The notes beneath the pieces were generated by a model. That model did not search any database and was not told the origin of the DNA. It saw nothing but the letters and a program-made list of their open reading frames with translations. The translations under genes were made by a program, and so were the position numbers. A DNA stretch of 51,705 nt, from the IMG/VR virus record IMGVR_UViG_3300036781_000186, positions 1 through 51,705 of that record, one strand, 5' to 3'. This document shows positions 18,285 through 42,228 of the stretch, in pieces; within the stretch, counting starts at the first letter, position 1, and each line of letters opens with the position of its first letter. This DNA comes from a virus.

Positions 18285-18704
18285 ATGAAAAACAATTATA
18301 GATACTTTACAAATACAACGTCGTTCGGTGACAACACAAAATTTATCGCGGCCAATGCAACGGCGGGTTTTATCGTAAACAAATCAGGAAATGTTAAATT
18401 GGCCTCGGATACTGTTTCTCTTAAAGTCTCTTTGAATTTTGTCGATACGGGTGCATGGAAAGAAATTAGTTTCATGGAAGCTCTTTCTCTTGTCCCTGAA
18501 CTTTCGTGGGTTTCCATTATCAAACGTCTTAGCAGTAAGCAATTTAAACCTATTCGTATCGGTTTAACTTCTGGTGGATATGTTATGGTTTATACAGATT
18601 CCGTAGATGCGGGACATGGTAATCAAATTTCTTTTGTGGAATTTGAAGATATTGCGAAAGCCATTAAAGAAGTCAAACAATTTCTCATTGACAATCCTCA
18701 ATAA
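18285..18704 (+). CDS. Unknown protein
   Basis: 139 residues, beta-rich with two similar hydrophobic cores and a C-terminal helix (FEDIAKAIKEVKQFLIDN). Promoter TTGACA, 17 nt, TAATCT, 7 nt to ATG. The last codons contain the TTGACA box for the prepilin-like gene. Confidence 0.7.
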   Translation: MKNNYRYFTNTTSFGDNTKFIAANATAGFIVNKSGNVKLASDTVSLKVSLNFVDTGAWKEISFMEALSLVPELSWVSIIKRLSSKQFKPIRIGLTSGGYVMVYTDSVDAGHGNQISFVEFEDIAKAIKEVKQFLIDNPQ

Positions 18705-18723
18705 TTAATATATTATTAACGCA

Positions 18724-18873
18724 ATGAAAATCAAATCACCAAAACTTAATAAGGGTTTTACTCTCGTTGAATTGTTAATAACCCTTGGATTCGTAGTCGT
18801 AGGAACCGTTGCTATCACGGGAAGTATTCTCTTGATTTATGCTGCCGTTCACTTTATTGGGAAGTATTGGTAA
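18724..18873 (+). CDS. Mini prepilin-like peptide with type III signal motif
   Basis: 49 residues. A basic leader ending in KG (Gly11) followed by FTLVELL (12-18) and a long hydrophobic helix is the class III (type IV prepilin) cleavage/N-methylation motif, with Glu at mature position 5. The protein stops after the N-terminal helix, so it has no pilin head domain. If processed by host PilD it could insert in the inner membrane and enter or block pilus or T2SS pseudopilus assembly (inference). Leaderless: TTGACA, 17 nt, TATTAT, 7 nt to ATG. Confidence 0.75.
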   Translation: MKIKSPKLNKGFTLVELLITLGFVVVGTVAITGSILLIYAAVHFIGKYW

Positions 18874-18915: not shown

Positions 18916-19104
18916 ATGGGAAAATCCCGAAACACTGATAAATACGGCAAGTTTAAAGACTTCCGCAAGAAAACTAAAAACCATAATAATCCACATAAGA
19001 AACCCGATGAATGGGTCAATCCCAAAGATTCTTATGAGGGTGAATGGAACCCCAATCAAAAAAATTTAGATGAACGTTGGGATTCTATGGCCGATGGAAT
19101 GTAA
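18916..19104 (+). CDS. Small hydrophilic protein
   Basis: 62 residues, no hydrophobic core, very rich in Lys, Asn, Asp and Trp (KPDEWVNPKDSYEGEWNP); likely disordered. Promoter TTGACA, 17 nt, TAATAT, 6 nt to ATG. Confidence 0.65.
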   Translation: MGKSRNTDKYGKFKDFRKKTKNHNNPHKKPDEWVNPKDSYEGEWNPNQKNLDERWDSMADGM

Positions 19105-19148: not shown

Positions 19149-19472
19149 ATGAAAATTAAGCATAATAATAAAAACTACACCCTTGACATCACACGCTCCA
19201 TTAATTTGGGCGTATTGAAAAAAGTGTTTGAGCCTCTCACTGACCCGAAACATGGCGATTTAGTTTCGCCTAATCAAGATGCCGTAAAAAATCGCACGGT
19301 TATTGTCATGGACTTCCAAAGAAAGTATTGGTTCTGTGGTCTTGGTGGTGAATTTCAAAACTTTTCTAATGGTGGTTATACTTATGATGAACTGATTAAA
19401 CATTTAATCGCCCATGAATATGTTCGTATCACCAATCTCAATGCCGATTTAAAAAAGTTGATGACCCAATGA
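19149..19472 (+). CDS. Member of a paralogous family (LGVLK family)
   Basis: 107 residues. The N-terminus (MKIKHNNKNYTLDITRSINL, then GVLKKV) matches the starts of the genes at 24917, 31617 and more distantly 46290: a short beta hairpin, K/N-Y-x-L, R-S/A-I/L-x-L-G-V-L, then a GD turn. Function unknown. Promoter TTGACT, 17 nt, TAATAT, 8 nt to ATG. Confidence 0.7.
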   Translation: MKIKHNNKNYTLDITRSINLGVLKKVFEPLTDPKHGDLVSPNQDAVKNRTVIVMDFQRKYWFCGLGGEFQNFSNGGYTYDELIKHLIAHEYVRITNLNADLKKLMTQ

Positions 19473-19714: not shown

Positions 19715-19910
19715 GTTGCCAGCCTTTGACATGAGTTCGTTTCCCATTAAATAATTTCCACAAATTTTTTCGGTCAACATTGTGTTTTTTAACAAAATCA
19801 TATTTTATTCCTTCATAAATTTCTCCAGTATCTTTATGAATAAATTTATGCACTGTCTGGTCTTTATTGTTTTCCCACATTTTGGTAATCTTTTTATGAT
19901 GTAATCGCAT
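19698..19910 (-). pseudogene. Frame-displaced C-terminus of GIY-YIG endonuclease
   Basis: 70 residues including DQTVHKFIHKDTGEIYEG and GKRTHVKGW, a DNA-binding repeat matching the C-terminus of the 42-kb GIY-YIG protein (MDKTVYTFLNVKTNEKF, then GKLKHCKGW). Here it is in a different frame from the upstream GIY-YIG part, so a one-base frameshift separates them. Confidence 0.7.
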
Positions 19911-20522
19911 TCAGATAATCTATCTTTTGCCAGCTTGCTCATTTTTAATCGAGTTTCAGGAGAGAAATATCTTCCTTTACTTGCAATTCCAATTTTTAAT
20001 TTAGTTTCAATGGAATGTTTTAATCCTCGCGTTCCTTTATGTGCAAATTTCATTTTCTGTCTAGTTTCTGGCGACGCCGTTCGTCCTAACATTCCATTAT
20101 TTATTCCAGAAACAAATGACATATTATAGACGTTAAGCGAATCGGTTTTTGCAATGTTCAAATACCTTTGTTCAGCCAATTTTAACTCTTCCATAATAGG
20201 TGTGATATATTCAACAATATAAAATTCAAACGAGTCTTGTCCATATTTATTCCAAGCTCGTTGTAAATGTATATTACTATGAATGTTTCTCTTTAACCCA
20301 AATTTATGTACGGCCCATCTATTTTTAAAATCCGATGCTTTACCAACATAATACTTACCATCAATTTTATTGACTATCTTGTATATCCCGCTTTTGATTG
20401 TGGTATCTTTCTGTTCGTTGCTTATCAATTCGTTTTTGATTTTTGTAGTAGTATCGCAATTGACGTTCTCGCCGTTCGTCGTCAAGTTCCGATTGTGGTC
20501 TATTAAGTTTTTTTCTTCCCAT
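19805..20522 (-). CDS. GIY-YIG homing endonuclease, no usable start codon
   Basis: The GIY-YIG domain reads SGIYKIVNKIDGKYYVGKAS, followed by RWAVHKFGLKRNIHSN and a NUMOD-like ETRQKMKFAHKGTRG repeat region. The in-frame ATGs upstream (20569, 20551) lie within the promoter (TTGACA, 17 nt, TATTAT), so they are not on the mRNA. After the transcription start the first ATG is in the other frame (20522) and opens a basic ORF ending just inside the GIY motif. Expression probably needs a +1 shift. A second frameshift removes the C-terminus. Confidence 0.75.
20367..20522 (-). CDS. Small basic MGRKKLNR ORF overlapping GIY-YIG gene
   Basis: 51 residues beginning MGRKKLNRPQSELDDERRER and continuing with RYYYKNQKRIDKQRTERY. 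It is homologous at the protein level to the ORF at 41943-42104 in the other GIY-YIG locus and stops (TAA) just after the DNA encoding GIY in the +1 frame. The ATG is 18 nt after the -10 box. Either an independent basic protein or the N-terminus of a frameshift-made endonuclease. Confidence 0.6.
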   Translation of the reverse strand: MGRKKLNRPQSELDDERRERQLRYYYKNQKRIDKQRTERYHNQKRDIQDSQ

Positions 20523-20647
20523 AAAAGTTTATTTGGTTCTATAATATTCATAAAAATGATATTTGTCAAGATATAAATAGTATGTAGAGGAATATAAAAT
20601 CAAAAAATGTTCTTGATTTTTAATTTTATTATGATAATATGCTCACC

Positions 20648-40964: not shown

Positions 40965-41487
40965 ACTTGCCAAAAAAACGCATGGAAAACTATTTCTTGA
41001 TTCTCAAACGGATAGATGTTGGTGTTGTCGAGCATTGGAAAATTGGTGGTTGACTGACAGTGGGGAAATAGATCAAAATAAAAACACGCTCATTGAAAGA
41101 TGTCATGTCATTCCACACTCTTTAGGAGGAAAAGACAACCCTCTCAATTTCGTTTTGTTATGTTCCGATTGCCATCGAAAGTCTCCTGATATTAAAGATG
41201 AATTCTCTATTTTTAAATGGATGGAGCAAGAATTTGATAAGCGTAAAGAATATAATGACGCATTCAATGATGGATTAAAATCTCAATTTCCCGAATTATC
41301 TATTAAACCGTTTGAAAAAACTATCATAGCAGTTGCTCATATTATAAAAATTCAAAATTCCGATGAGTTTGTTAATTGGTATGCTGAAAATACTACGTCG
41401 CATTTTGGTGTTAGAACGAAAGCATCTACAAAAGTCGCGGCCCTTAGATGTTATATTGATCAATTCCAACCTTTTCCTGTAAAATAA
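40873..41487 (+). CDS. HNH homing endonuclease lacking a start codon
   Basis: Open from 40873 to 41487 in the +1 frame of the preceding gene, with no ATG, GTG or TTG before the conserved region. KEKILAAWWGNLDNPNRKDR, then DRCWCCRALENWW, ERCHVIPHSLGGKDNPLN and FVLLCSDCHRKSPD form a zinc-stabilised HNH. Expression would need frameshifting or reinitiation from the gene at 40707. Its 3' end overlaps the leftward GIY-YIG gene. Confidence 0.75.
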   Translation, partial: PLEKKKRHFPSKEKILAAWWGNLDNPNRKDRLAKKTHGKLFLDSQTDRCWCCRALENWWLTDSGEIDQNKNTLIERCHVIPHSLGGKDNPLNFVLLCSDCHRKSPDIKDEFSIFKWMEQEFDKRKEYNDAFNDGLKSQFPELSIKPFEKTIIAVAHIIKIQNSDEFVNWYAENTTSHFGVRTKASTKVAALRCYIDQFQPFPVK

Positions 41488-42104
41488 TTACCCAGCCTTT
41501 GCAGTGTTTTAATTTTCCTGTAATAAGGGCGTAAATGTTTTGAGGTTTAATTGGAAATTTTGTATAAAAATCATATCGCTTTCCAATAAATTTTTCATTA
41601 GTTTTGACGTTTAAAAATGTATAAACGGTTTTGTCCATTTGAGATTCTGACATTTTTCTCTTTGTTTTATGGGTATGTTTTATTCCTAAGCGTGGCGATT
41701 CTGCGTTATAGTTTAAATTGTAGGATGTTTTCGGATTTAATTTGCAGATATTTAAATAGGTCTGCTCAATACCTAAAAGATTTGTAGTAGGCTCAAAGAA
41801 AACAAATTCAAAATTGTCAATGCCATATTTATTAAATGCAGATTGTAGTTTGGGGTTTTCGTGGATGTTCTTTTTTAACCGTCTTTTGTGCTGTCTAAAT
41901 CGTGTATAAACATCCAAAGAACTTCCCACATACCAATGACCATTAATCTTGTTTACTATCTTGTAAATCCCGCTTTTTATTCCAATATCTCTCCATTGCT
42001 TTTTGGTTGCATTTATCTTTGTTTCGTTGATAGTATTGTTTTGAGCGATAGTTGGATTGCTCTTTAACTTCTTCGATGGTTCTGTTAAGTTTTTTTCTTC
42101 CCAT
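41444..42104 (-). CDS. GIY-YIG homing endonuclease, no usable start codon
   Basis: The domain reads SGIYKIVNKINGHWYVGSSL, then RFRQHKRRLKKNIHENPKLQ, and a C-terminal DNA-binding repeat (YTFLNVKTNEKFIG, then GKLKHCKGW). The only in-frame ATG (42118) overlaps the -10 box (TATTATG), so the mRNA cannot start there. The first ATG on the mRNA (42104) is in another frame and opens the basic MGRKKLNR ORF. Convergent with the HNH gene. Confidence 0.8.
41943..42104 (-). CDS. Small basic MGRKKLNR ORF overlapping GIY-YIG gene
   Basis: 53 residues: MGRKKLNRTIEEVKEQSNYR, then QYYQRNKDK and MERYWNKKRDLQDSKQD. Shares MGRKKLNR, a YY-x-x-N motif, ERY and KRD-x-QDS with the ORF at 20367-20522, in the same position relative to its GIY-YIG gene. 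Promoter TTGACA, 17 nt, TATTAT, 12 nt to ATG. Confidence 0.65.
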   Translation of the reverse strand: MGRKKLNRTIEEVKEQSNYRSKQYYQRNKDKCNQKAMERYWNKKRDLQDSKQD

Positions 42105-42228
42105 AATATATCTTTCATAATATCAGTTCAATGTCTATCTGTCAATATATAAATATAAAGTGAAAGAATAAAACGTGAAGAAAAATATAAAAACTTATTG
42201 ACTTTTTATATTGTTGTGGTATTATCTT

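Follow-up and report, generated by a model that had tools for sequence, protein, structure and literature searches.

PfsE (PA0721), a protein of 30 amino acids encoded by the filamentous Pseudomonas phage Pf4, sits in the inner membrane with its N-terminus on the inside, binds the pilus platform protein PilC and blocks both pili and superinfection (PMC8764522). A cluster of aromatic residues in it is needed, with the qualification that the point mutants are also unstable, and a C-terminal tag abolishes activity (PMC8764522). The open reading frame considered here is likewise predicted to specify a tiny phage protein of the inner membrane, and PfsE serves as the model for its mechanism. The two differ in that PfsE is from a temperate inovirus, has no reported class III signal and carries its conserved YxWGW at residues 16-20, inside the protein, whereas the present product has no YxWGW and ends in HF[IV]xK[FY]W.

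A tabulation of matches to the N-terminal methylation motif in T4-like phages dates from 2006 (PMC1524935). Short prepilin-like open reading frames are found in many virulent, lytic phages, such as Aeh1 (ORF040c, 28 amino acids), PhiW-14 (gp119, 44), PAK_P3 (59) and nt-1 (61), with others in Aes508 and Vibrio phage 1.081.O; the protein of the last has 136 matching records, longer annotated pilins among them. Like the one under study they have a class III signal and little or no head, but their pilin helix ends near residue 28 or in a short hydrophilic tail, and HF[IV]xK[FY]W is absent. The annotated 28-residue product of Aeromonas phage Aeh1 (L208, 1498-1584) is the N-terminus of a prepilin only, MKGFTLIELIVVVAILGILFSVVAPAIF. 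True relatives are present in two other Aeromonas phages. A 42-amino-acid open reading frame of Ahp1, annotated as hypothetical, joins a class III signal to VHFVTKYW, and an unannotated one in TS3 joins such a signal to IHFIAKFW, with predicted mature lengths of 34 and 31 residues against 38 here. The gp12 protein of Stenotrophomonas phage C121 shares the type of tail (WHFISKFW), the single helix and an early-region location but not the prepilin signal.

The open reading frame and its prepilin signal

The whole stretch of DNA, here called the window, is the 51,705-nucleotide virus record IMGVR_UViG_3300036781_000186 from IMG/VR, with a GC content of 0.37 and the T4-like genes rIIA, rIIB, RNA ligases and GP88. 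The DNA flanking the open reading frame has no match among annotated phages, a search by way of RNA ligase found no relatives, and a contig related through a GP88-like protein (L213) was set aside, being without the tail, the class III signal and the promoter style described below. Elsewhere in the window, two genes on the minus strand (19805-20569 and 41444-42118) match the group I intron endonuclease model TIGR01453, and three genes at 19149, 24917 and 31617 have similar protein starts, MKIKHNNKNYTLDITRSINLGVLKK, MKIIVNSKEYTLQTKRAIELGVLVE and MKITVDGKNYELNVERSLTLGVLKE, and constitute a repeated small gene family.

A first-pass annotation had described a leaderless 49-residue prepilin mimic at this locus, made up of a full class III signal, KGFTLVELL cut between Gly and Phe, and a hydrophobic helix without a head domain. 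The open reading frame (Table 1), whose complete translation is MKIKSPKLNKGFTLVELLITLGFVVVGTVAITGSILLIYAAVHFIGKYW, bears this description out. At the predicted cleavage site the product divides into MKIKSPKLNKG and FTLVELLITLGFVVVGTVAITGSILLIYAAVHFIGKYW, so placing Glu at position +5 of the mature part. In common with the PF07963/TIGR02532 domain it has a basic, Lys-rich leader, Gly at -1, Phe at +1 (where Phe or Met is expected), Thr at +2, Glu at +5 and a hydrophobic helix; Gly11 of the leader is kept in at least 90% of the sequences in alignment A3. It scores just below the cut-offs of both models (Pfam N_methyl, 19.1 bits, E 9e-4, cut-off 21.2; TIGR02532, 15.0 bits, cut-off 16.3), though the Pfam N_methyl cut-off is passed by several members of the family defined below. 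No globular head is present, the frame stopping directly after the helix and a distinct eight-residue tail whose conservation the first-pass annotation had overlooked.

Table 1. Features of the locus in the window
Feature	Position	Strand	Basis
Predicted sigma-70-type promoter, 7 nt before the ATG: TTGACA (18688-18693), 17-nt spacer, TATTAT (18711-18716)	18688..18716	+	sequence; near-consensus
Open reading frame of 49 amino acids (ATG at 18724, TAA closing at 18873), predicted headless prepilin-type one-helix membrane protein	18724..18873	+	sequence and relatives
Predicted leader peptide MKIKSPKLNKG	18724..18756	+	sequence; Pfam N_methyl 8-21; cleavage after Gly11 predicted
Predicted mature 38-residue helix, F-T-L-V-E5...KYW	18757..18870	+	sequence; mature lengths of relatives
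C-terminal family tail VHFIGKYW, abutting the stop codon	18847..18870	+	shuffles and tail scans

A degraded pilin gene is rejected, as no remnant of a head is seen downstream and the conserved tail is complete; the next open reading frame starts at 18916 and has a promoter of its own. Chance is likewise rejected, by shuffling (there is one copy of the tail motif in the window and none in 100 shuffles), by the scans of bacterial and archaeal genomes and without the stop codon that are given below, and by the existence, in Aeromonas phages and many metagenomic phages, of relatives having both signal and tail. The product has no match among the PADLOC models for anti-phage defense.

A family defined by its C-terminal tail

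Weak matches to the product came from the two Aeromonas phages and from one high-GC metagenomic phage, and all are alike in their last residues, the prepilin signal being common to both of the Aeromonas sequences as well. Two further matches from the first search (L003 and L004) were set aside as ordinary long pilins, and one from a Staphylococcus phage as an unrelated membrane protein. A scan of IMG/VR with V-H-F-[IVMTA]-x-K-[YF]-W-stop listed 52 loci, nearly all of them tiny open reading frames with one hydrophobic helix that end exactly at the motif, while scans of viral contigs with the I-H-F variant and with the HFIxKFW core each yielded at least 120 stretches. When redundancy is removed, with less than 70% identity to others defining a distinct member, there are at least 122 distinct proteins of 24-70 residues, each with one helix and each ending in HF[IV]xK[FY]W. 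The product from the window is of this kind, having a single hydrophobic helix and a tail that the stop codon follows at once. The residue at -11, which lies outside all of the search patterns, is aromatic in 102 of the 122 listed members (Tyr in the window), and the N-terminus is net positive in 68 of 101. In three clusters of the family pN/pS is 0.13, 0.30 and 0.44. The tail is found with very different N-termini and helices, in phages whose GC content ranges from about 0.26 to 0.69 and whose size reaches about 460 kb. One contig (L058, 1556-1768) has two adjacent genes of the family, with tails VHFIQKFW and AHFIGKFW, the second product ending LAHFIGKFW.

Run over 257 Gb of genomes from bacteria and archaea, the V-form of the pattern gave six matches, none convincing. 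Five lack either a start codon or a hydrophobic helix; the remaining one (L061, from an archaeal metagenome-assembled genome) is ambiguous, having no aromatic residue at -11. Dropping the stop codon from the pattern added 18 viral matches, all in frames without the features of the family; the tail is thus strictly C-terminal, and so by selection. In 20 whole contigs the family pattern matches exactly once each, in a single stand-alone gene, and the reversed pattern not at all. No convincing model covering the tail was found in PHROG, Pfam, NCBIfam or PADLOC; given this, and the length of the genes (25-70 codons), the family has probably been overlooked. A search of solved structures with a profile of the tail gave no match and one with the prepilin-type profile gave only the N-termini of pilins and pseudopilins, and a literature search on the tail or on headless prepilin decoys found nothing relevant. 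From these scans the tail family is apparently phage-specific.

Predicted promoter and leaderless expression

As applied to the predicted mRNA, the description of the gene as leaderless is correct. With TATTAT so close to the ATG, the transcript is predicted to start at or beside the start codon, and no Shine-Dalgarno sequence precedes the open reading frame. This arrangement of promoter and ATG has 111 matches across the window against 11-25 in shuffles, and only one of the 52 open reading frames of at least 100 amino acids in the window has a Shine-Dalgarno-like site. Between 2222 and 50605, and mainly on the plus strand from 17531, there are dozens of small genes each with its own near-consensus promoter (TTGACA, 15-17 nt, then TATTAT or TATAAT) that ends 4-11 nt before the ATG. 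It seems that many genes of this phage are made as leaderless single-gene mRNAs.

Prepilin-type members and helical register

A class III signal, taken as [GA][FWYIML][TS]xx[ED] near the N-terminus, is present in 22 of the 122 listed members, degenerately so in one (L256), and absent from the other 100. In the first set it was found in 15 of 101 members as against 7 of 3733 other hydrophobic ATG-initiated peptides from the same DNA (Fisher p 1e-19), and those seven look spurious. The window, Ahp1 and TS3 sequences, three of the 22, came from protein similarity rather than from the tail scan. In an alignment of 20 of the class III members, Thr +2 and the His, Phe, Lys and Trp of the tail are invariant, and conservation is 90% or more at Gly -1, at Glu +5 and at the tail Ile, with free variation in the middle of the helix. 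Retention of Gly -1, Thr +2 and Glu +5 in 20 divergent relatives argues that recognition by prepilin peptidase is under selection, and the peptide from the window is probably trimmed by that enzyme of its host.

The mature lengths of the 22 are 34 (14 members), 31 (three), 38 (three, including the window, which thus departs from the commonest value), 30 and 35; lengths of 32, 33, 36 and 37 never occur. The spacing between Glu5 and the tail therefore shifts by about whole helical turns only, and one reading of this is that the two are held at a fixed angle on a single continuous helix. Where the signal is absent, acidic residues that lie N-terminal to the helix also recur, with a peak at 100 degrees per residue (permutation p 0.0055). 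These phase figures are suggestive, not proof, as the sequences are related, the independent length changes few, several angles and residue classes were considered and more than one test was made. Prepilin-type phages have few genes in common in the DNA compared, which suggests either repeated transfer or an old origin.

Neighboring genes and hosts

Terminase, primase, helicase, recombination, methyltransferase and unknown genes are neighbors of the family gene. No conserved partner gene emerged among them, the top cluster consisting of frames that overlap the family gene itself. In phage C121, gp12 is near the genome start, upstream of the RNA polymerase gene. One AT-rich group of the family has neither Shine-Dalgarno sequences nor sigma-70 promoters, and the neighbors of the family include a DUF3127 gene; we take these features as a weak hint of Bacteroidota hosts. 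Bacteroidota generally lack pili of the kind discussed below.

Possible function

The product is a prepilin-type member of the family of phage membrane microproteins, predicted to lie in the inner membrane, that end in HF[IV]xK[FY]W-COOH. An inner-membrane effector of host takeover or superinfection exclusion is its fairly probable role, while a pilus or pseudopilus platform as the specific target is a possibility that we hold with more doubt than belief. The mode of action set out here, held as a whole at somewhat less than even confidence, is modeled on that of PfsE by analogy, not homology. Host sigma-70 RNA polymerase would make the leaderless transcript, giving an early peptide that inserts with its N-terminus inside, and host prepilin peptidase would cut after Gly11 to leave a helix of 38 residues. 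The helix face that bears the acidic residue, together with the tail, which would lie on the outer side of the inner membrane, may then dock on an inner-membrane machine of the host, for which the likeliest candidate in the case of prepilin-type members is the PilC/GspF platform of the type IV pilus or type II secretion system. This platform normally receives the N-termini of pilins. A headless peptide lodged there would block the loading of pilins, and a superinfecting phage would be excluded. That prepilin signals are so strongly enriched in a family otherwise defined by its tail argues that the target of the tail is tied to the machinery that handles pilins, in those hosts at least. Most members have no signal, however, and this, together with the possible Bacteroidota group, for which the evidence is weak, argues against a pilus target for all members.

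The first-pass annotation had proposed that the peptide, processed by the host peptidase, inserts into or poisons type IV pili or pseudopili. In its strict form the headless prepilin would be processed, methylated and inserted as a faulty subunit, with the tail merely capping the helix. Part of this proposal stands, given the peptidase-recognition residues (Gly -1, Thr +2, Glu +5) kept in the 20 divergent relatives and the precedent of PfsE (PMC8764522), and headless or near-headless prepilin open reading frames that lack the tail are indeed present in other lytic phages. With 100 of the 122 listed members having no prepilin signal, however, incorporation into pili cannot be the function of the whole family, nor can poisoning of pili be assumed for all of it. 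These members have the invariant tail in common, and a plain cap would not require an invariant His, Phe, Lys and Trp; the strict form is regarded as decidedly unlikely. Rated a little higher, though still unlikely, is the converse idea that the signal is an unprocessed membrane anchor and that the target of the tail is a broadly conserved membrane protein with no relation to pili, such as the DNA-entry channel or a protein of respiration or lipid synthesis. The joining of one tail to such different N-termini and helices, across phages so diverse in GC content and size, fits this, but neither the joint retention of the three recognition residues nor the helical phasing of Glu5 and tail would be expected of a mere anchor.

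A peptide with one helix could also be a holin, pinholin or other lysis protein that opens or depolarizes the membrane late in infection. Its size and topology suit small holins, the embedded His/Lys pair could carry protons, and a few lysis-type neighbors are seen (one endolysin, one lytic transglycosylase-type domain and one peptidase M15). Yet in nine of the ten contigs in which a lysozyme or amidase was detected it is more than 6 kb from the family gene, often 13-59 kb, the C121 member is among early genes and adjoins the gene for a ssDNA-binding protein, and the window gene has a host-type promoter of its own, all of which makes a lysis function very improbable. Of the endolysin families searched for in the window (Phage_lysozyme, Amidase_2 and Peptidase_M15_3), none was found.

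Significance

Small inner-membrane effectors of phages and the prepilin signal are already known; what appears to be new, judged from sequence comparison, is the tail family, in which the two are combined. Taken at its widest, the platform-blocking reading would have widespread, phage-specific minimal effectors, down to 24-25 residues, use an invariant tail to block a conserved inner-membrane machine. In some of them the tail would have become fused to a prepilin signal, in register along the helix, and the prepilin peptidase of the host would complete a decoy able to jam the platform for pili or secretion. So extended it is a speculative scheme, rather unlikely to hold in every part. Were it true, phages that differ widely in size, GC content and lineage would have in common a minimal effector that has gone unannotated, and its prepilin-type members would, to our knowledge, provide the first case of a headless prepilin decoy in which the effector tail is defined. 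The prepilin-like open reading frames long noted in lytic phages would then become testable.
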